Source: Halorubrum salinum
GTDB lineage: Archaea; Halobacteriota; Halobacteria; Halobacteriales; Haloferacaceae
Length of the DNA stretch: 64,000 nt
Direction: 5' to 3'
Assembly: GCF_024494575.1 (NCBI RefSeq)
Contig: NZ_JANHDO010000004.1
Span: 62,001-126,000 of the forward strand
Of the stretch, positions 1,812-61,637 are shown one piece after another. The notes under the pieces are model-generated. The model was given only the letters and a program-made list of their open reading frames with translations, did no database searches and was not told the DNA's origin. Every line of letters begins with the position of its first letter. Within the stretch, counting starts at the first letter, position 1. A program made the position numbers and the translations under genes.

Positions 1812-2537
1812 ATGATATCGCTCGACGAGGCCGTGACGGCTCGACTGGAGTCACACGGTGAACGATTCGAGGTGCTTATCGATCCGGACGCCGCGCTGGC
1901 GATGAAACGCGGCGAGTTCGACGGCGACCTCGAAGACGTCATCGCAGCCGAAGACGTCTTCGAGAACGCTTCTCGCGGCGACCGACCGGCCGAAGAGGAC
2001 TTAGAGACGGTCTTCGGAACGACGGACCCCCTCGAAATCATTCCCGAGGTCGTCGAGCGCGGGGAGATACAGATCACGGCGGAACAGCGCGAGGAGATGG
2101 TCGAACGGAAGCACAACCAGCTCGTCACCACCATCACGCGCAACGCCGTCAACCCGCAGATGGACGACTCCCCGCATCCGCCGGACCGGATCGAGCGGGC
2201 GTTAGAGGAGGCCGGGTTCCAAGTCGACCCGATGGAACCGGTCGAAAATCAGGTCGACGACGCGCTCGACGCGCTGCGTCCGGTGATCCCGATCCGATTC
2301 GAGGAGGTGACGATGGCGGTCCAGCTCCCGGCCGACTATGCGGGCTCCGGACAGGCACAGATCCGCGAGTTCGGCGACCTCGAACGCGAAGAGTGGCAGA
2401 ACGACGGCTCGTGGGTCGGCGTGCTCACGTTCCCGGCGGGGCTACAAAACGACCTGTACGACCTCGTCAACGAGGTCACCTCCGGCGAGGGCGACGCCCG
2501 AGTGATCAAGGACAAAGACGAGATTCGGACGCGCTGA
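1812..2537 (+). CDS. Ribosome maturation protein SBDS homologue
   Basis: A 241-residue protein of the Shwachman-Bodian-Diamond family, which in eukaryotes helps release the anti-association factor eIF6 from the new large subunit; the archaeal aIF6 gene is also in this window at 44227. The N-terminal FYSH domain (1-90) includes the FEVLIDPDAALAMKRGE region; the helical middle domain has ITAEQREEMVERKHNQLVTT (around 99-118), and the C-terminal ferredoxin-like domain begins near residue 160. The length is normal for archaeal SBDS. The start is the ATG at 1812 in a context that follows the AGGATTTTTCACG promoter-like stretch. Confidence 0.9.
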   Translation: MISLDEAVTARLESHGERFEVLIDPDAALAMKRGEFDGDLEDVIAAEDVFENASRGDRPAEEDLETVFGTTDPLEIIPEVVERGEIQITAEQREEMVERKHNQLVTTITRNAVNPQMDDSPHPPDRIERALEEAGFQVDPMEPVENQVDDALDALRPVIPIRFEEVTMAVQLPADYAGSGQAQIREFGDLEREEWQNDGSWVGVLTFPAGLQNDLYDLVNEVTSGEGDARVIKDKDEIRTR

Positions 2538-2659
2538 CGGACGGAGCGCGGACGCCCGACGCCCTGCGTCGTGGCGGCGATCGCTCGGTCGACTTTCGAC
2601 CGGCCCGCATACGTACCGCATCCGGGGAGTTGATACCGACGCCCGTTCCGTCGTGTGGT

Positions 2660-3145
2660 ATGCACGAACGCGCGGCGGAGTTTTCCGAGGGCGTACACGA
2701 GCGGTACGGTATCGACGTCGACGTGCTGGAGTTCGACGCGGGAACGAAGACCGCGGCCGCCGCGGCCGACGCCGTCGGGTGTGACGCGGCGGCGATCGCT
2801 TCTACCATCGTGGTGTCGCTCGCCGATGAGGGGAACGGAGGCGGGTTGGGTGCCGCCATCACGAGCGGCGCGAATCGCATCGATCTCGACGCGGTCGCCG
2901 ACCACTTCGACGCGTCGGCGGCGGCGATGGCGGACCCCGATCGGATCCGCGAGACGATCGGCTGGAGCATCGGCGGCGTCCCGCCGCTCAGTCACGACGC
3001 GACGATACCGACGGTCTTCGACCCGACGCTCACGGAGTACGACACCGTCTACGCCGCGGCGGGAACCCCGAGCGCGCTGTTTGCGATCGACCCGAGACGG
3101 CTCGCCGACCTCGCCGACGCGACCGTCATCGATCTGACGGAGTGA
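2660..3145 (+). CDS. YbaK/EbsC family aminoacyl-tRNA deacylase
   Basis: A 161-residue YbaK/ProX fold protein. The family hydrolyses mischarged tRNAs such as Cys-tRNA(Pro) in trans. It carries the conserved AAIASTIVVSLAD strand (residues 45-57, holding the position usually occupied by the family lysine region) and the SIGGVPPLSH loop (101-110) that holds the glycine-rich substrate pocket. The start ATG at 2660 is 122 bp after the SBDS stop. The exact tRNA substrate cannot be read from the sequence. Confidence 0.8.
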   Translation: MHERAAEFSEGVHERYGIDVDVLEFDAGTKTAAAAADAVGCDAAAIASTIVVSLADEGNGGGLGAAITSGANRIDLDAVADHFDASAAAMADPDRIRETIGWSIGGVPPLSHDATIPTVFDPTLTEYDTVYAAAGTPSALFAIDPRRLADLADATVIDLTE

Positions 3146-3170
3146 ACCACGCGAGGCCAGAAGCCCAGTT

Positions 3171-3214
3171 TTGTTAACTCCGACTTATGAAATAACAATA
3201 CTTTTCTGTTAACA
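3171..3214 (+). promoter_or_regulatory. Palindromic operator pair and AT-rich promoter of the zinc operon
   Basis: TTGTTAAC starts at 3171 and the perfect 8-bp palindrome TGTTAACA lies at 3207-3214, 35 bp apart. Between them is AT-rich promoter sequence (TTATGAAATAAC at 3185-3196, and a TACTTTTC stretch about 27 nt before the znuA ATG). One repeat lies upstream of the likely TATA element and the other downstream of it, which is a typical way for a metal-dependent repressor to block assembly of the initiation complex. The repressor is not identified. Confidence 0.45.
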
Positions 3215-3230
3215 CGTTCTTCGATCCGGT

Positions 3231-4295
3231 ATGGACCAGTCACGACGGTCGGTGCTGAAGCAGGGAGCGGGGTTGGTAGGTACCGGTGTGACCGCGTCGC
3301 TCGCCGGCTGTTCGGGCACTGGTGGGAGTGTCGACGGCGGGGAAGGTGCGGGAGACGACTCCGGATCGTTCGGGGGCGGCTACACCGCCTTCTTCACGCT
3401 CACCGACTGGACGAACCGGGTCGCCGGCGACCGTGCGACCTTCGAAGATCCGGTCGAGGTCGGTCGGCTCGGGCACGGGTGGGAGCCCAGCGGGACGCTC
3501 GCCGCCGACGTCGCCGCCACCGACGCGTTCGTCTACCTCGACCACCCCGAGTTCGCGTGGACGCAAGACCTCGCGTCGACGCTGGAGGCCGACTACGACT
3601 CCGTGGCGGTGATAGACGGGCTGTCCAGGCTGGAGGGGGACCTGCTCGCGTGGGATCACGGGCACGGAGACGGCGACCCCGACGGAAGCGGAACCACGGA
3701 GACGGAGGACGGTCACGGCGAGGACGGCGACGGTGAAGACGGGCACGACGGCGGCCGGCAGACCGACCCGCACGTCTGGGTCGATCCGGTCCGATCGGCG
3801 GAGGTCGTCGAGACGATCGCCGCCGGGCTCGGGGACGCCGACCCCGACAACGCCGAGGCCTACGCCGACAACGCCGAGGCCTACGCCGCGGAACTCGACG
3901 AGATCGACGCCGCCTTCGCGGCGCTCACCGAGAGGGCCACGCGCGACGTGGCGGTCATCGCCGGCCACAACTCGTTTCAGTATCTGGAGGACCGGTACGG
4001 GTTCCGACTCCACTCGCCGGTCGGCGTCTCGCCGCAGAACGAGCCGACCCAGACCGAGATCGCGGACACCATCGAGATCGTCGACCGAGAGGGAATCGAC
4101 ACGATCCTCTATGATCGGTTCGGCTCGACCACGCTCGCGGAGGCGATACTCGAGAACAGCGACGCGACGGAGATGGCCGCCGTCTCGCCGGCCGGCGGCA
4201 CGACCCGGGAGTGGAACGAGGCCGGCTACGGCTATCTCGAACAGATGACGGAGATCAACCTCCCCGCCTTTCGGCGGGCGTTCGGCGCGCAGTGA
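3231..4295 (+). CDS. znuA: Zinc ABC transporter substrate-binding lipoprotein
   Basis: A 354-residue ZnuA/ZinT-type cluster A-I binding protein. It starts with a Tat signal (SRRSVLKQG) and a lipobox LAGC with Cys27, so it is probably exported folded and lipid-anchored. Likely metal ligands are His82 (GHGWEPSG), His181 in DPHVWVDP and His246 in AGHNSF. A His- and acid-rich loop at about 142-176 (GHGDGD ... GHGEDGDGEDGH) is the usual mark of zinc rather than manganese binding proteins. Residues 206-219 contain a DNAEAYA unit repeated twice. It is followed by the ATPase and permease genes in the same direction. Confidence 0.93.
   Translation: MDQSRRSVLKQGAGLVGTGVTASLAGCSGTGGSVDGGEGAGDDSGSFGGGYTAFFTLTDWTNRVAGDRATFEDPVEVGRLGHGWEPSGTLAADVAATDAFVYLDHPEFAWTQDLASTLEADYDSVAVIDGLSRLEGDLLAWDHGHGDGDPDGSGTTETEDGHGEDGDGEDGHDGGRQTDPHVWVDPVRSAEVVETIAAGLGDADPDNAEAYADNAEAYAAELDEIDAAFAALTERATRDVAVIAGHNSFQYLEDRYGFRLHSPVGVSPQNEPTQTEIADTIEIVDREGIDTILYDRFGSTTLAEAILENSDATEMAAVSPAGGTTREWNEAGYGYLEQMTEINLPAFRRAFGAQ
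3846..3887 (+). repeat. 21-bp exact tandem duplication inside znuA
   Basis: The unit GACAACGCCGAGGCCTACGC plus one C occurs at 3846-3866 and again at 3867-3887 with no mismatch. It keeps the frame and doubles the heptapeptide DNAEAYA in the linker helix of ZnuA, so it looks like a recent slippage duplication without loss of function. Confidence 0.8.
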
Positions 4296-9605: not shown

Positions 9606-11372
9606 ATGACAGAGACGCCAGGGGACGCCGAGGACCGGTCCGCGTCCCCGATGGCGAACGATCCTCCGACAGACGCGCCGCCGGACTCGTCCGGAACGTC
9701 GCAGACGGGCTCCGTGACGGTCGTCGGGACCGCACACGTCTCCGAGCGCTCCGTCGACGAGGTCGAAGAGGCGATAGAGCGGGAGCGGCCCGACGTCGTC
9801 GCCGTCGAACTCGACGAGGGACGGTACCGCCAGATGCAGGGCGAGACGCCCGACGATCTGGACGCCGGCGACCTGCTGAAGGGGAACACCGTCTTCCAGT
9901 TTCTCGCGTACTGGATGCTCTCGTACGTGCAGACGCAGCTCGGCGACCGCTTCGACATCGAGCCGGGAGCCGACATGCGCGCCGCGATCGACGTCGCGGA
10001 GGGGCTCGGCATCGACGTCGCGCTCGTCGACCGCGACATCCAAACGACGATCCAGCGGTTCTGGGCACGGATGTCGATCACGGAGAAGCTCCGGATGGTC
10101 GGGGGACTGGCGTTCGGAGTCACCGATCCCCGGATCGCGGGAGTCGTCGTCGGGTTGTTCGTCGGAATCCTCGCCGGACCGGTCATCGGCCTGTTCGGCG
10201 GTGCGCTCGGGATCTCCGACGCGCTGTTGACGAGCGTCACCGGCGGCGTGCTCGCCGCCGTAGCGGTCGGCGTCGTCGTCGATCAGGTCGGGAAGGTCGG
10301 GCTCTCGCCCGACGGCCGGCTCTACGCGGCGAGCGGGCTCGGCGTCGCGTCCGGCCTCGCGGTCGCGGCGCTCGGGCTCACGGATGGGTTCGTCACGGCG
10401 TACCTCGGCGGGTTCACCGTTACCGCCATCGGGAGCCTCGGCCTCGGCATCTCGTTCGGGCTCACGCTCGGCGTCGTCGCGGCCGGACTGCTCGGCCTCG
10501 CCGGTCGCGGCGGGAGCGACCCGGAGCACGGCGGAATCGAAGGACTCGACGTCGATGACCTCACCGACGCCGACGTGGTAACCATGATGATGGAGGAGTT
10601 CCGCCAGTTCTCGCCGGGCGGCGCGGAGGCGCTCATCGACGAGCGCGACGCGTTCATCGCCCACCGGCTCGTCGCGCTCCGCGAGGCCGGACACGACGTC
10701 GTCGCGGTCGTCGGTGCCGGCCACCGGGCCGGCATCGAGGAGTACCTCGCAGACCCGTCCGCGCTCCCGCCGATGGCGGACCTCGTCGGACGCGAAGGCG
10801 GCCGAGGGTTCCCCTGGAAGAAGCTGATCGGCTACGGGATCACGGTCGGGTTCGTGGCCTTCTTCGTCCTGCTCGCGCTCGCCGGCGTCGAGAACGCCTT
10901 CCTCTTCCGGCTGTTCGGCGCGTGGTTCCTGATCAACGGCGTCTTCGCGTTCGCGTTCGCCAAGATCGCGGGCGCGCGCTGGCTGTCCGCCGGCGTCGGC
11001 GGTGCCGTCGCGTGGATGACCTCGATAAACCCGATGCTCGCGCCCGGGTGGTTCACCGGGTACGTCGAGCTCCGGTCGCTGACGGTGAACGTTGGCGACA
11101 TCGGGACGCTCAACGACCTGCTCTCGGACGAGACGCTCTCGCCCGGCGACCTCGTCTCGGCGATGCTCGACGTCCCGCTGTTCCGACTCATCGTCGTCGT
11201 CGCGATGACGAACGTCGGCAGCATCGTCGCGAGCTTCCTCTTCGCCGTCTACGTCATCCCCGCGATGTTCGGCGCGGAAGTGGGGGGCGTCGACGAGGTG
11301 AGCCGGCTGATGATTGAGGGTGCCAGACGCGGTGCCGAGCTGATCGGGAACGCGGTCGCGGGGGGACGATGA
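9606..11372 (+). CDS. TraB/PrgY-GumN family membrane protein
   Basis: A 588-residue protein. The N-terminal TraB domain (about 35-235) holds the conserved GTAHVSERSVDEV and VVAVELDEGRY motifs and a later VVAVVGAGHRAGI motif near 370 that closes the domain. About eight hydrophobic segments follow or interrupt it. TraB proteins of enterococci shut down pheromone production, and the fold is related to the tiki/EreA putative metalloprotease group. The ATG at 9606 is preferred over a GTG two codons upstream. Its end overlaps the next gene, a site-2 protease, by ATGA, suggesting joint function in membrane proteolysis. Confidence 0.85.
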   Translation: MTETPGDAEDRSASPMANDPPTDAPPDSSGTSQTGSVTVVGTAHVSERSVDEVEEAIERERPDVVAVELDEGRYRQMQGETPDDLDAGDLLKGNTVFQFLAYWMLSYVQTQLGDRFDIEPGADMRAAIDVAEGLGIDVALVDRDIQTTIQRFWARMSITEKLRMVGGLAFGVTDPRIAGVVVGLFVGILAGPVIGLFGGALGISDALLTSVTGGVLAAVAVGVVVDQVGKVGLSPDGRLYAASGLGVASGLAVAALGLTDGFVTAYLGGFTVTAIGSLGLGISFGLTLGVVAAGLLGLAGRGGSDPEHGGIEGLDVDDLTDADVVTMMMEEFRQFSPGGAEALIDERDAFIAHRLVALREAGHDVVAVVGAGHRAGIEEYLADPSALPPMADLVGREGGRGFPWKKLIGYGITVGFVAFFVLLALAGVENAFLFRLFGAWFLINGVFAFAFAKIAGARWLSAGVGGAVAWMTSINPMLAPGWFTGYVELRSLTVNVGDIGTLNDLLSDETLSPGDLVSAMLDVPLFRLIVVVAMTNVGSIVASFLFAVYVIPAMFGAEVGGVDEVSRLMIEGARRGAELIGNAVAGGR

Positions 11373-12037
11373 GCACGACGCCGCAGGGGCGGCGGATCGC
11401 CGGCCTGTACTTCAGCGGAACCGAGCTTCGCGACCTGCTCGTGGCGTGGCTCGCGCTCGGCGTCGCGTTCATGTTCTTCTTCGTGGGCGGATCGGCGGGG
11501 ATCGGTCGAATCGTGGACGCGGGCGTGGTCCCGCCGCTGGCGGTCGCGCTCTCGACCGCGGGGGTGGCGTTCCTCCTCCACGAGCTGGCACACAAGGTCG
11601 TCGCGGTCCGCTACGATCAGGTAGCCGAGTTCCGCGCCGACACGAGCATGCTGTTTCTCGCCGTGATGAGCTCGCTCTTGGGGTTCATCTTCGCCGCCCC
11701 CGGCGCGGTCCACCACCGGGGACGGCTGACGCCCCGAGAGCACGGCCACATCGCGCTCGCGGGCCCGGTCGTGAACCTCGTGCTGGCGGTCGTCTTCCTT
11801 CCGGCGATGGTGGCGGGGGGTCTCATCGGGAGTCCGATCCTCTCGCTCGTCGGCGCACGCGGGGTGGCTATCAACGTCTTCCTCGCCGCGTTCAACCTGA
11901 TCCCCTACGGCCCCCTCGACGGGAAGACCGTCATGGGGTGGAGCAAGCCGGTGTGGGCCGTCGCGTTCGTCCCCTCAGTGCTTCTCGCCGTCGGCCTCGT
12001 GTTCGTCGGCGGACTCGGATTCGGCGGGCCGTTCTGA
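11369..12037 (+). CDS. Site-2 protease family (M50) intramembrane metalloprotease
   Basis: A 222-residue membrane protein with the M50 zinc motif HELAHK at 71-76 and the second motif NLIPYGPLDGK (176-186) whose Asp184 is the third zinc ligand. It has five to six hydrophobic helices and lacks a PDZ domain, like compact archaeal S2P enzymes. Such enzymes cut transmembrane anchors of regulators. It is coupled to the TraB-family gene by a 4-base overlap. The substrate is unknown; the membrane-tethered regulator at 8787 is a speculative candidate. Confidence 0.9.
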   Translation: MSTTPQGRRIAGLYFSGTELRDLLVAWLALGVAFMFFFVGGSAGIGRIVDAGVVPPLAVALSTAGVAFLLHELAHKVVAVRYDQVAEFRADTSMLFLAVMSSLLGFIFAAPGAVHHRGRLTPREHGHIALAGPVVNLVLAVVFLPAMVAGGLIGSPILSLVGARGVAINVFLAAFNLIPYGPLDGKTVMGWSKPVWAVAFVPSVLLAVGLVFVGGLGFGGPF

Positions 12038-12174
12038 GTCCTCCGATCTCGGTTCCGCTCCCGGCGGGTTCGACCCGCGTGTCGTGAGCGGCGTCCGCGT
12101 CGTGAGCGGAGGCGTCCACGGTCGCTCCCGTCGGGAACGGTGCGCTTTTGCTCCGCGGGCGTCCCTCGACACAC

Positions 12175-13197
12175 ATGACAGAGGGCGACGACACGGACCG
12201 GGACGGCACCGCGGCCGACGACGAGCTCACATACGCCGACGCCGGCGTCGACATCGACGCGAGCGAGGCCGCGACCGCGGCGCTCATTGGCGCGGTCGGC
12301 GGCGACGTGGAAGGCGAAGGAACCGACAGCGACTACGCCGGACTGATCGACATCGGCGACCGCTACCTCGCGCTCGCGACCGACGGCGTCGGGACGAAGC
12401 TGCTCGTCGCCGAGGCGCTCGGCGACTACTCGACGATCGGGATCGACTGCGTCGCGATGAACGTCAACGACCTCGTCGCCGCCGGCGTTCGACCGGTCGC
12501 CTTCGTCGACTACCTCGCGGTCGAGGAGCCCGACGAGCGCTTCTCCGAACAGGTCGGCGAGGGGCTCTCTCGCGGCGCGGAGCTTGCGGACATGGCGCTC
12601 GTCGGCGGCGAGACCGCGGTGATGCCGGACGTGATCAAGGGGCTCGATCTGGCGGGCACCTGTGCCGGACTCGCGCCGAAAGACGGGGTGTTCGACGGTT
12701 CTGCGCGCCCCGGCGACGCCCTCGTCGGCTGGCGCTCCTCCGGGATCCACTCGAACGGGCTCACGCTCGCCCGCGAGGCGACGACGCGAGAGCACGCCTA
12801 CGACGACCCCTGTCCGTTCGACGGATACGAGACGATCGGTGAGGCGCTTCTCGAACCCACCAGAATCTACGCCGACCTGCTCGGTCCCCTTCGCGATCAC
12901 GACGTTCACGGCGCGGCCCACGTCACCGGCGGCGGCTGGACGAACCTCGAGCGGCTGGGCGACAACGGATACGTCGTCGACGACCCGTTCGACTCACAGC
13001 CCGTCTTCGAGTTCGTCCAGTCGGAAGGAAAAGTCTCGGACGAGGAGATGCATCGCACGTTCAACATGGGGACCGGCTTCGTCGCCGCCGTCGACCCGGC
13101 CGACGCCGACGCGCTCGCGGAGGCGACCGACGGGCGCGTTATCGGCCGCGTCGACGACGGCGACGCGAGCGTGTCGATCCGCGGCCTGACGCTGTAA
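12175..13197 (+). CDS. purM: Phosphoribosylformylglycinamidine cyclo-ligase
   Basis: A 340-residue AIR synthetase, the fifth step of de novo purine synthesis, converting FGAM to AIR with ATP. Key signs are LTYADAGVDIDASEAA near the start, ATDGVGTKLLVAEAL (about 63-77), VAMNVNDLVAAGV and GGETAVMPD (about 143-151), all family hallmarks. The ATG at 12175 is chosen because homology starts just after it and a CTTTTGC element lies 27 nt upstream. The other purine genes seen here, guaB and guaAa, are far away. Confidence 0.95.
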   Translation: MTEGDDTDRDGTAADDELTYADAGVDIDASEAATAALIGAVGGDVEGEGTDSDYAGLIDIGDRYLALATDGVGTKLLVAEALGDYSTIGIDCVAMNVNDLVAAGVRPVAFVDYLAVEEPDERFSEQVGEGLSRGAELADMALVGGETAVMPDVIKGLDLAGTCAGLAPKDGVFDGSARPGDALVGWRSSGIHSNGLTLAREATTREHAYDDPCPFDGYETIGEALLEPTRIYADLLGPLRDHDVHGAAHVTGGGWTNLERLGDNGYVVDDPFDSQPVFEFVQSEGKVSDEEMHRTFNMGTGFVAAVDPADADALAEATDGRVIGRVDDGDASVSIRGLTL

Positions 13198-56633: not shown

Positions 56634-57485
56634 TCAGTCGTCCGCGCCCGACGCACCGCGGGTCGCGGCCCCGAGTCCCGACGCCATGCCCGCGACGGTT
56701 CGCTCGTTCTCGACCACCCAGCGGAGCAGGAGGAACGCGAAGAGGTACTTCGCGACGATGTCCATGCCGCTGTAAGCCCACGAGGTGACGGCGACGTCGA
56801 TCAGCGCGAACCCCTCCGCGCCGAGCGCCCAGACGACCGGGTAGCCGAGCCAGAGGACGACCGTGAGGATCTTCAGCGTGTCGAATATCTCGGCCGTCCC
56901 GGCGATCTCGGCGTCTTCGGCCCACTCGACGAGGAGGACGTATAAGACGACGACGAAGAACGCACAGCTGATCGCGTACCACACCCACCGGAGGAGATAC
57001 GAGGAGGTGGTCAGCGCGGCCGCCAGCCCGGTGACGCACATCCCGATGTCCGCCGCGATGGCAGTGAACAGTTTCGTGGGGTTCGAGCCCGCGAGAAGCC
57101 CCAGAGCGAGCAGTATCATCGGCGTCGACAGCGCCCACGTGAGATACCGACCCCACATCGTCAGCACCGCCTCGCCGGCGAGCGCGTGGCCGGCCGGCAT
57201 CTCGAGGAAGCTTATCGTGAGCCCGGAGGCGAGCCCGACGTAACTGGAGATGGACACCAGCGGGACCATGAGCGTCGCCACGAAGATCAGTTGGGCGCGC
57301 GGGTCCTCGACCGTCCGTCCCATGAAGACGAAAAGGAGGATCGACAGCCCCGCGAGCGCGATGTTCACCCAGAACGACGCGTTCAACAGCTGATCGCTTT
57401 GCACCGCCTGATACGCCTCGGTCTGGGTCGTCCCGAGCGGGACGCCGCCCTGTACCAGCAGGTCGAACGCGGCAGTCTCGATCAT
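56634..57485 (-). CDS. hop: Halorhodopsin, light-driven chloride pump
   Basis: A 283-residue retinal protein with seven helices. Helix C reads WGRYLTWALSTPMILLALG (111-129): the bacteriorhodopsin positions Asp85, Thr89 and Asp96 are Thr116, Ser120 and Ala127, the TSA motif of chloride pumps, while Arg113 (Arg82) is kept. The Schiff-base lysine is Lys246 in MDIVAKYLF, with Asp242 nearby. Helix D-E sequence ALTTSSYLLRWVWYAISCA is typical. The ATG at 57485 follows a Bat-type upstream element. Confidence 0.96.
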   Translation of the reverse strand: MIETAAFDLLVQGGVPLGTTQTEAYQAVQSDQLLNASFWVNIALAGLSILLFVFMGRTVEDPRAQLIFVATLMVPLVSISSYVGLASGLTISFLEMPAGHALAGEAVLTMWGRYLTWALSTPMILLALGLLAGSNPTKLFTAIAADIGMCVTGLAAALTTSSYLLRWVWYAISCAFFVVVLYVLLVEWAEDAEIAGTAEIFDTLKILTVVLWLGYPVVWALGAEGFALIDVAVTSWAYSGMDIVAKYLFAFLLLRWVVENERTVAGMASGLGAATRGASGADD

Positions 57486-57527
57486 GTAGCGTCCGGAAGT
57501 TGGGTGCGACGCTGTGTAACAGTAGAG

Positions 57528-57542
57528 CCCAACTAGTTGGGT
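57528..57542 (-). promoter_or_regulatory. Bat-box upstream activating sequence of halorhodopsin
   Basis: On the minus strand ACCCAACTAGTTGGG matches every fixed position of the Halobacterium Bat motif as I recall it (ACC-c-n-actagtt-n-GG). It contains a perfect 14-bp palindrome and is centred about 50 bp before the hop ATG, just upstream of a weak TATA-like TGTTAC at about 57515. That is the layout of the bop promoter. GTTGGGT also occurs at 57499 and 57629 on the plus strand. Confidence 0.65.
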
Positions 57543-57635
57543 ACGCGAGTAATACGGGGTGGCGAACCGCCAACCCAGTTCCCGCTGAACGGGGGCGACC
57601 GCGATATTGAAACGACCGGAGCCCTCACGTTGGGT

Positions 57636-58055
57636 ATGCACCGCAGACGGTTCCTCCGGCGGGCCGGCGCGCTCGGGGCCGCGGGGGCCTCGGTCGGCCT
57701 CGCCGGCTGTGCCGGCGTCGGCGGCGACCCGGGGTACGACGTGGGAATGATGGCGTCTGCCTTCCGGCCGGCGGAGATGACCGTCTCCGTCGGCGACACC
57801 GTCGTCTGGGAGAACACGAGCGCGCGCACCCACACAGTCACCGCGAGTCGGCTCCCCGACGAGGCGGCGTACTTCGCGTCCGGCGGCTACGACGACTACG
57901 AGACCGCGCTGGCGGAGTGGGAGAGCGATTTCGGCGGCGGATTAGAGACCGGCGACCGCTTCTCGCACACGTTCACCGTTCCGGGCACGCACCACTACGT
58001 CTGTATCCCGCACCTCACCGGCGGGATGGTCGGGACGGTGACCGTGGAGGAGTAA
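57636..58055 (+). CDS. Halocyanin-like blue copper lipoprotein
   Basis: A 139-residue plastocyanin-fold protein. It begins with a Tat signal (RRRFLRRAG) and a lipobox LAGC with Cys25. Type 1 copper ligands are His66 in ARTHTV, Cys123, His126 and Met131 in YVCIPHLTGGM. It should carry electrons outside the membrane, probably to a terminal oxidase. ATATTG at about 57604 may be its TATA element. SafE and copper ATPase genes follow. Confidence 0.92.
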   Translation: MHRRRFLRRAGALGAAGASVGLAGCAGVGGDPGYDVGMMASAFRPAEMTVSVGDTVVWENTSARTHTVTASRLPDEAAYFASGGYDDYETALAEWESDFGGGLETGDRFSHTFTVPGTHHYVCIPHLTGGMVGTVTVEE

Positions 58056-58177: not shown

Positions 58178-59035
58178 ATGGCCATCTCGACGCTCCTCGG
58201 AGTCGACGTCCTCCTGTTTCTCGCCATCGGCGTCCTCGGCGGAGCCCACTGCATCGGGATGTGCGGCCCGCTCGTCACCGTCTACGCCGGACGGATGCGC
58301 GAGGGGGCGGGCGAGCGGACGGACGGCGGCGCGACCGGCGGACGGACGCGCGGCGGTTCCGACACCGCGACCGACCGCCGCGGCAGCCACCTCACCACCT
58401 ACGAGGTCCGCCAGCACGCCCTGTTCAACCTCGGACGGGCGGCGAGTTACACCCTCATCGGCGCGGCGTTCGGCGCGCTCGGCGGAGCGGTGCTCGTCAC
58501 GACCGCGACGCTCACGGGCGCGGCGGCGACGGTCCGCGGCGTCGTCGGCCTCGGCGTCGGCGCGGCCGTCATCGTCGTCGGCGTCCGGTACGCGCTCGGC
58601 GGGGCGACGGGCGGCGTTCACCTTCCGGGGCTCGACCGCGTCACCGGCTGGCTCACGGGGTACGTCGACCGGCTGGCGAACGGTCCCGGGATCGTCGGTC
58701 TCGGCGGGCTCCACGGCCTGCTCCCGTGTCCGATCCTCTACCCGGCGTACCTCTACGCGTTCGCGAGCGGGTCGGCGACGAGCGGCGCGGTCGCGCTCGC
58801 CGCGCTCGGCGTGGGGACGATGCCCGCGGTGTTCCTCTACGGGACGCTGATCGAGAGCGTCGACGCGGTCCACCGCAGGCGGGTCCACCGGCTGCTCGGG
58901 CTGGCGTTCGTCGCGCTCGGCTACGTGCTGTTCGCGCACGGGCTGATGGCGGTGGGCGTCCACATTCCGCACCCACGCCTGCCGTTCTGGAACCCGCTCG
59001 ACGTCGCCGGCGCGTCCGGTCACGGAGGGATGTGA
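58178..59035 (+). CDS. SafE/UreH-domain membrane protein, copper-handling type
   Basis: A 285-residue protein with six to seven helices. GGAHCIGMCGPLVTVY (about 21-36) and GLHGLLPCPILYPAYLYAFA (about 181-200) are the two cysteine-bearing helices of the sulfite exporter TauE/SafE-like 'CcoH/UreH2' group. In bacteria relatives sit beside CcoI copper ATPases. A charged, Gly/Arg-rich loop (about 40-70) is inserted. Its stop is one base before the GTG of the copper ATPase. Confidence 0.85.
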   Translation: MAISTLLGVDVLLFLAIGVLGGAHCIGMCGPLVTVYAGRMREGAGERTDGGATGGRTRGGSDTATDRRGSHLTTYEVRQHALFNLGRAASYTLIGAAFGALGGAVLVTTATLTGAAATVRGVVGLGVGAAVIVVGVRYALGGATGGVHLPGLDRVTGWLTGYVDRLANGPGIVGLGGLHGLLPCPILYPAYLYAFASGSATSGAVALAALGVGTMPAVFLYGTLIESVDAVHRRRVHRLLGLAFVALGYVLFAHGLMAVGVHIPHPRLPFWNPLDVAGASGHGGM

Positions 59036-59036
59036 C

Positions 59037-61637
59037 GTGAGCGCGAGCCCGCCGAGCGAGACGGGAGACGCCGCCGACGGCTGTACCCTCTGTGACCTCC
59101 CGACCGAGGGCGTCGACGTCACAGACGACGAGGGGAACCGCTTCTGTTGTGCGGGCTGTCGGGACGTGTACGCGGCCCTCGGCGACGCCGACGTCGACGC
59201 CGACGACGTGCGCGAACGGCGGTCGGCGACCGCCTCCGAGTCCGGCGGTCCCGCGCGCGACGGCTCCGACGCCGAAAGCGACGCGTCGGCGGTTCCGGCC
59301 GACCACGAGGCGGCGTTCCTCGAAGTGGACGGGATGCACTGTGCGACCTGTGAGGCGTTCATCGAGACGGTCGCGACGGACACCGAGGGCGTGAGCGCCG
59401 CGAGCGCGAGCTACGTCACGGACACGGTTCGGATCGACCACGACCCCGACGCCGTCTCTACAGACGACCTCTCAGAGGCCGTGAGCGGGCTCGGATACAG
59501 CGCGTACGCCCGAGACGACGCCTTCGAGCGCCGCAGGGCCGACAACATGGCGACGGCGCGTCTGGCTGCCGGCGTGCTCGTCGGCATGGCGGTCATGCTC
59601 CAGTACATCGTCATCATCTACCCGACGTACTTCGCGTTCCCCTTCTACAACGAGCGGACGCTGGAGTACCTCAATCAGGCGATGTCCTCGACCTCCGGTA
59701 CCTACTTTTTCATCGTCATCGCGGTGTTGACGACGGTCGTGCTGTTCGTGACGGGCAAGCCGATCCTCAGGGGGGCGTACGTCAGCGCCAAGACGCGGTC
59801 GCCGAACATGGATCTCCTCGTCGCGCTCGCGGCCGTCAGCGCGTACGTCTACAGCACGCTCGCCGTGATCTTCGTCGAGTCTCCCTCCGTCTACTACGAC
59901 GTGACCGTCGCGATCATCGTGATCGTCACGGTCGGGAACCGCTACGAGGACGCGATCAAGTCGCGCGCGACGGAACTGCTCTCCGATCTCACCGCCGTGC
60001 AGGTCGACTCGGCGCGCCGGGTCGCGCGGGCGGGAGCCGACGGCGAAGACGGAGGGACCGAGGAGGTCGCCATCGACGCCCTCGCCCCCGACGACCGAGT
60101 GCTCGTGCGCGCCGGCGAGCGGGTTCCGGTCGACGGCGAGGTCGTCGACGGCGACGCCGCGGTCGACGAGTCGGTGGTCACCGGGGAGTCGATGCCCGTC
60201 CGGAAGACGCCCGGTGACGCGGTGGTCGGCGGGTCGGTCGTCGCCGACGGCTCCGTGACGGTCGCGGTCGGCCCGGACGCGAGTTCCAGCCTCGACCGCG
60301 TCTCGGAGCTGGTCTGGGACCTCCAGAGCGGGAACCACGGGGTCCAGAAGCTCGCGGACCGGCTCGCGACCATCTTCGTCCCCGCGGTACTCACGATCGC
60401 CGTCGTCGCCGCCGCGGTCAACCTCGCGCTCGGCAACGGCGTGACGCGGGCGATGCTCGTCGGGCTCACGGTGCTCATCGTCTCGTGCCCGTGCGCGCTC
60501 GGGCTCGCGACGCCGCTCGCTGTGGCCGCGGGGATCCGCGACGCCTTGGAGCGGAACATCGTGATCTTCGACGACACCGTCTTCGAGCGGGTCCGCGACG
60601 CCGACACCGTCGTCTTCGACAAGACGGGGACGCTGACGACGGGCGAGATGCGCGTGGTCGCACGCGAGATCGACGACGGTCTGCTCCGGCTCGCGGCCGC
60701 GCTCGAAGAGCGGTCTTCACACCCGGTCGGACAGGCGATCGCGGCGGCTCGGTCGGGCGGCGGCTCCGGAGACGTCGCCGAAACGGCGGGGTCCGGCGAC
60801 GGCGACGCGACCCCCGCGGTCGCGGACGGCGGGGCGGCGGCGGACGACCGGGCGGAGAGCGACAAGTCGCCTGTCGGCGGCTCGCCGTCGCCCGCAGTCA
60901 CCGACTTCGAGAGCCACGCCCGCGGCGTCTCCGGAACCGTCGACGGGACGCCGGTCGTCGTCGGCCACCCCGACCTCTTCGACGAGCGCGGGTGGACGGT
61001 GCCCGACCGGATTCGGGAGGCGGTCGCCGACGCCCGCGACGTTGGACGCGTCCCGGTCGCGGTCGGTCGCGACGGCGCGGCCGAGGGCGTGATCGTCGTC
61101 GGCGACGAGCTTCGCGAGGGGTGGGAGGAGACGGTGACCGCGCTCGACGGCCGCGGCGTCGACGTGGTCGTCCTCACGGGCGACGACGAGCGCGCGGCCA
61201 CGGTGTTCAGCGAACACGACGCGGTCTCCTCGGTGTTCGCGGGCGTTCCGCCCGAGGGGAAAGCCGAGACCGTCGAGCGGCTGAAGGCCAACGGCCTCAC
61301 CGTGATGGTCGGAGACGGGACCAACGACGCGCCCGCGCTGGCCGCGGCCGACCTCGGCATCGCGCTCGGGGGCGGCACGGCGATGGCGGCCGACGCCGCC
61401 GACGTCGCGATCGTCGACGACGATCTCGGCTCCGTGGCGACCGTCTTCGAACTCGCGCGCGCGGCCGGTCGGCGGGTGAAGGGGAACATCGGCTGGGCGT
61501 TCCTGTACAACGCGGTCGCCATCCCGCTCGCGGCGCTCGGGCTGCTCAACCCCCTCTTCGCCGCGGTCGCGATGGGGCTGTCGAGCCTGCTCGTCGTGAC
61601 GAACTCCTCGCGGGCGCTGCTGTCCGACGAGGCCTGA
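59037..61637 (+). CDS. Copper-translocating P-type ATPase, CcoI/CopA type
   Basis: An 866-residue P1B ATPase. N-terminal CTLC and CCAGC (16-41) form a TRASH-like metal site, then an HMA domain with MHCATCE (Cys102, Cys105). The actuator has TGES, the membrane metal site is CPC (484-486), the phosphorylated aspartate is Asp528 in FDKTGTLTTGE, and GDGTND is at 759-764. The double N-terminal domain and the SafE neighbour suggest copper delivery for oxidase or halocyanin assembly rather than simple efflux. A Gly/Asp-rich insert lies near residue 580. Confidence 0.93.
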   Translation: MSASPPSETGDAADGCTLCDLPTEGVDVTDDEGNRFCCAGCRDVYAALGDADVDADDVRERRSATASESGGPARDGSDAESDASAVPADHEAAFLEVDGMHCATCEAFIETVATDTEGVSAASASYVTDTVRIDHDPDAVSTDDLSEAVSGLGYSAYARDDAFERRRADNMATARLAAGVLVGMAVMLQYIVIIYPTYFAFPFYNERTLEYLNQAMSSTSGTYFFIVIAVLTTVVLFVTGKPILRGAYVSAKTRSPNMDLLVALAAVSAYVYSTLAVIFVESPSVYYDVTVAIIVIVTVGNRYEDAIKSRATELLSDLTAVQVDSARRVARAGADGEDGGTEEVAIDALAPDDRVLVRAGERVPVDGEVVDGDAAVDESVVTGESMPVRKTPGDAVVGGSVVADGSVTVAVGPDASSSLDRVSELVWDLQSGNHGVQKLADRLATIFVPAVLTIAVVAAAVNLALGNGVTRAMLVGLTVLIVSCPCALGLATPLAVAAGIRDALERNIVIFDDTVFERVRDADTVVFDKTGTLTTGEMRVVAREIDDGLLRLAAALEERSSHPVGQAIAAARSGGGSGDVAETAGSGDGDATPAVADGGAAADDRAESDKSPVGGSPSPAVTDFESHARGVSGTVDGTPVVVGHPDLFDERGWTVPDRIREAVADARDVGRVPVAVGRDGAAEGVIVVGDELREGWEETVTALDGRGVDVVVLTGDDERAATVFSEHDAVSSVFAGVPPEGKAETVERLKANGLTVMVGDGTNDAPALAAADLGIALGGGTAMAADAADVAIVDDDLGSVATVFELARAAGRRVKGNIGWAFLYNAVAIPLAALGLLNPLFAAVAMGLSSLLVVTNSSRALLSDEA

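Follow-up and report, generated by a model that had tools for sequence, protein, structure and literature searches.

The region between hop and the divergent halocyanin-like gene of Halorubrum salinum contains a palindromic box, which raises the question of which of the two genes it serves and which activator it binds. In the H. salinarum Bat-bop regulon, a UAS is found at bop, brp and crtB1, and bat is linked to bop (PMC1447603, PMC1885257, PMC2121645). A preliminary description of the locus had proposed control of a similar kind for hop, and perhaps also for the copper genes on the other side. In this study, we analysed a stretch of 64,000 nucleotides around the locus (the window), together with the rest of the 2.73 Mb genome and related genomes. 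The features of the locus are as follows.

56634-57485, minus strand: hop, halorhodopsin of 283 aa, a light-driven chloride pump (PF01036, E 5.5e-54)
57499-57505: GTTGGGT copy, considered non-functional (downstream of the hop TATA element and absent from related hop promoters)
57515-57520, minus strand: TATA-type element GTTACA, 7 nt downstream of the box
57528-57542, minus strand: predicted Bat-type upstream activator box ACCCAACTAGTTGGG (from the sequence, its uniqueness in the genome and a box at the same position in 43/44 hop promoters of the genus)
57598-57613, plus strand: core promoter of the halocyanin-like gene, ACCGCGATATTGAAAC, without a Bat box (genus-wide conservation)
57629-57635: GTTGGGT copy immediately upstream of the halocyanin ATG, considered non-functional (not conserved in about 40 relatives)
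57636-58055, plus strand: halocyanin-like blue copper protein gene, divergent from hop (PF00127), first gene of the copper module
58178-59035: DsbD_2 family protein of the copper module
59037-61637: copper P-type ATPase of the copper module (TIGR01511/TIGR01525)

The best PDB matches of the hop product were all halorhodopsins (E 3.4e-109 to 6e-104).

The box in the hop promoter

The box had been described as a minus-strand match to all fixed bases of the Bat motif, with a 14-bp palindromic core. We found an exact pattern match there, an ACC..AC...TT.GG-like box of the type known from the bop UAS, and its core at 57528-57541 is a perfect palindrome. The gap between the box and the hop ATG, at 57485 on the minus strand, was 42 nt, where about 43 had been given. 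The Bat consensus quoted in the preliminary description was checked against the DNA of H. salinarum-type bop and brp promoters. It was about right when compared with the bop box ACCATACTGATTGGG and with ACCCCACTAGCTTGG, which precedes brp on the same contig, although it does not reproduce the bop sequence letter for letter. A search of the literature text for the exact consensus, using ACTAGTT, returned unrelated papers only.

The pattern ACCNNACTAGTTNGG had one exact match in the whole genome, the copy at hop, compared to 0.13 expected from base composition; within the 155-bp region at 57486-57640, 7.5e-6 matches are expected. When up to two mismatches were allowed, the window contained five matches against 2.0 expected. 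The loose matches therefore mean little, and the exact match alone stands out.

We then compared hop promoters across the genus, in a sample of 52 Halorubrum genomes of which 44 contain hop. In 43 of these 44 genomes, the frame.CCNNAC..GT..GG was conserved at -56 to -58 relative to the hop ATG, immediately upstream of the TATA element. A strict form of the pattern matched in place 42 times and had no match elsewhere in upstream sequence, of which about 20 kb was covered. The mean information in the hop promoters was 1.37 bits per column within the box and 0.27 in the 60 nt upstream of it. The form ACCCAACTAGTTGGG also occurs in H. salipaludis (L014/L101) and ACCACACTGGTTGGG in several other Halorubrum genomes, while most hop promoters of the genus carry ACCTTACCAGTCAGG or close variants. 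Outside the genus, Natronorubrum bangense and Halohasta have similar boxes at -57 of hop, and further genera have looser ones. As the position is fixed across the genus, the box is more than a chance match, and these comparisons indicate that the hop box is a real promoter element. A palindrome that arose by chance between divergent promoters and has no regulatory role might be suspected because short motifs are common and GTTGGGT, which is part of the box, occurs at chance level in the window. However, the single exactly placed match in the genome argues against this, and for the box it is refuted by the position-fixed conservation; we regard its probability as negligible. A role of the palindrome as an RNA hairpin was rejected by reasoning: it lies upstream of both TATA elements and is therefore in neither leader.

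The halocyanin-like gene and the GTTGGGT copies

A shared operator was considered, in which the palindrome would control hop and the halocyanin/copper genes in both directions. The box is palindromic and lies within a divergent intergenic region of 150 bp, and TACGC comes after it on the plus strand, a feature shared with bop promoters. Among relatives, however, the two start codons are between 150 and about 2,780 bp apart, and the box stays at -57 of hop. In the present genome, it is more than 90 bp from the halocyanin-like gene, and it is not kept near that gene in relatives. The halocyanin-like gene instead has a conserved, boxless core promoter of its own, and CCGCGRTATTSAAAC is conserved upstream of it across the genus. 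We found no conserved box of its own at activator distance for the halocyanin/copper module. Thus, the variable gap and the boxless promoter do not bear out the Bat control that had been suggested for the divergent copper module, and a bidirectional operator appears highly improbable.

The sub-motif GTTGGGT had been noted at 57499 and 57629. Both copies are present; a role for them is not supported, given their lack of conservation in relatives, which for the copy before the ATG also counts against the bidirectional operator. A third copy lies inside the box, at 57536. The two extra copies form a local cluster, and the whole window contains six copies on both strands, compared to 6.9 expected. 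The copies at 57499 and 57629 were therefore rejected as additional sites, and chance is the best reading of them.

The bop-linked bat gene and the box at bop

The preliminary description had made Bat control depend on a bat gene in the genome. We found one directly upstream of bop, with bat at 10574-12241 and bop at 9709-10458 of L041, both on the minus strand. The bop product matches PDB bacteriorhodopsins (best E 5.5e-111), and bat is thus linked to the bacteriorhodopsin gene. The bat product shows the domain order of Bat, namely PAS/LOV, GAF, BAT and HTH_10. ACCACACTGGTTGTG is found in the bop promoter, 57 nt upstream of the ATG; this box agrees with that of hop in type and distance. This bop box is common to ten bop promoters of the same type in the genus; an extra, more distant bop gene in G033 lacks it. 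With zero mismatches, the strict bop-box pattern occurred at exactly two places in the 2.73 Mb, bop and hop, where the hop match is the plus-strand reading of the palindrome. Read in that direction, 57528-57560 gives the box and then TACGCGAGTAATACG, like the bop promoters of the genus. A start codon at the matching distance is absent after the box on the plus strand, and this likeness is possibly due to chance. In the other bacteriorhodopsin type of Halorubrum (L050 and others), it is mainly the left half of the box, ACCTNACT, that is preserved in the promoters, at an unchanged distance; the right half differs.

Looser patterns gave 11 matches in the genome, compared to 4 for a reversed control pattern. 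Only those at bop and hop were placed in promoters, and the others were inside ORFs. A box was found neither upstream of the single brp/blh gene of this genome nor around its third rhodopsin. The lack of a box at brp/blh indicates that the regulon does not simply replicate that of Halobacterium but is composed differently.

The hop promoter resembles the Halobacterium bop promoter in its arrangement of a box, 7 nt and the non-canonical TATA element GTTACA. The H. salinarum-type bop promoter reads ACCATACTGATTGGG-TCGTAGA-GTTACA, and its box is identical to the hop box at 11 of 15 positions. It was taken from a genome whose bacteriorhodopsin is 100% identical to our query, the known H. salinarum sequence. 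The box stands at -57 from the ATG at hop here and at -54 at H. salinarum bop, and at hop it lies directly upstream of the TATA element with fixed spacing to the gene. In another observation, the bop gene of G063, a Halobacterium with a bacteriorhodopsin identical to the query, is interrupted within the first few codons; the two contigs, L214 (1-120) and L216 (at its start), both terminate at this point, as an insertion element would be expected to cause. GTTACA has been reported as the TATA element of the Halobacterium bop promoter (PMC2121645). In both systems, the target is an opsin gene and bat is linked to bop. In contrast to the Halobacterium regulon, the target here is the chloride pump gene hop, and the Halobacterium hop promoter showed no clear box.

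The bop-linked bat, the same box at bop and the fixed-position box throughout the genus support the Bat-type control that had been claimed for hop. These results suggest that 57528-57542 is likely the UAS of the hop promoter and the target of the bop-linked Bat, and that hop is most likely a member of the Bat regulon, as a new target of a known system. We propose that the bop-linked Bat would bind the hop palindrome via its HTH, probably as a dimer. Bound Bat would then recruit TBP/TFB to the weak, non-canonical TATA element 7 nt downstream, and hop would be induced along with bop in the light at low oxygen. Both light-driven pumps are thus probably controlled by one light- and oxygen-sensing activator, Bat.

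Bat classes and the form of the box

The LOV signature of the bop-linked Bat in this genome, GRNCRFLQ, contains the canonical cysteine. The same position is occupied by histidine in Halobacterium Bat and by proline in most of the sampled Halorubrum Bats. Identity to Halobacterium Bat was only about 34-36%, and the HTH helix also differs. These features set the Bat of this genome apart as a class of its own, with the canonical cysteine in its LOV domain. The low identity, the lack of a clear box at Halobacterium hop and the lack of one at brp/blh here weigh against the proposed assignment of hop. We refer to Bats with the helix RSTFHQHLRAA and the LOV motif GRNCRFLQ as class A. The LOV domain is like those of YtvA-type photoreceptors, which share this motif. 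The best NCBIfam hit was the YtvA family (E 6.7e-46, residues 37-167), with a score of 156.8 bits, which is below the whole-protein cut-off of 250 bits. Unlike in YtvA, the LOV domain here is coupled to GAF-BAT-HTH_10.

Most Halorubrum genomes encode a class B Bat with the same core domain order, and their hop box is at the same place. The sampled class B Bats differ in having proline for the LOV cysteine and the helix TRQTFHQHLRAAER, and the hop boxes of these genomes are mostly of the form ACCTTACCAGTCAGG. The class B Bat of G041, the one checked by Pfam, has an N-terminal receiver domain. The BAT-LOV* domain from H. hochstenium has been reported with proline at the LOV cysteine place (PMC4682037), and it probably belongs to a class B Bat.

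We investigated the relationship between the Bats and the boxes. A Bat homologue was present in 43 of the 44 hop genomes and absent from 7 of the 8 genomes without hop. The sole hop genome without a Bat match, G017, also carries the sole degraded box, ACCGCACGTGAATGG. Of the 11 genomes that encode a class A Bat, 9 have the GTTGGG form of the box, compared to none of the 33 others (Fisher p 8e-8, which takes genomes as independent and is uncorrected for relatedness). In this count, G029 was placed in class A because its second Bat has the cysteine and a helix of the A type. The hop tree provides six independent contrasts for Bat type; the box agrees with them in four to five and opposes them in none, and the sign test on these contrasts (p 0.06-0.125) is not significant by itself. 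Two class A genomes lack the GTTGGG form: G014 has an intermediate box, and G016 also encodes a class B Bat, a reading of the exceptions that was made after seeing the data. Taken together, the box variants appear to follow the type of Bat that each genome encodes, with lines of evidence of unequal strength.

A third line of evidence is the linkage of bat to hop in two genomes. In G041 (L190), hop at 2390-3250 on the minus strand and bat from 3463 on the plus strand are divergent and adjacent, and hop is the only rhodopsin match; bat is followed there by an overlapping reading frame of 278 aa without a Pfam match. In G116 (L218), from another genus, bat follows hop (1863-2720, plus strand) directly on the same strand. 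A class A Bat is also encoded at G036:C23:125058-126719 (L193), in a genome without a hop or bop match.

The activator site could be real and yet be bound by another HTH_10/BAT paralogue, or by a complex such as Bat with Brz/Brb-like proteins. The genome contains seven BAT-domain stretches, and light induction of bop in H. salinarum needs Bat together with the small proteins Brz and Brb (PMC3184054). The authors of that report suggested that Bat/Brz/Brb-like sets may act on other opsin genes. However, the form of the box follows the class of the Bat that was found by the bop-linked Bat query, and the bop box of the same genome is of the same type and adjoins bat. A binder other than the bop-linked Bat alone therefore seems unlikely, and we retain the bop-linked Bat as the predicted activator of hop. 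On these comparisons of sequence, it is conceivable, and we propose it tentatively, that in one Halorubrum lineage a single activator, which keeps the adduct-forming LOV cysteine, directly switches on both pumps, and that its helix and both boxes have changed together.

No description of hop as a Bat-box gene across Halorubrum was found in our partial coverage of the literature; among the papers found, a Bat-type switch for hop had been raised only as a possibility (PMC3184054). As a Bat-box gene, hop is ordinary in kind and new in target. With this assignment, the chloride pump gene would share the switch of the proton pump gene in a halophile genus that is widespread. Matched variants of Bat and box are available as a test set from dozens of genomes, including one hop genome without Bat and one with bat beside its sole rhodopsin gene. 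If a single cysteine-LOV activator with co-changed boxes does control both pumps, these Bat/box pairs would amount to a natural series in which archaeal photoreceptor-activators and their promoters have co-evolved.
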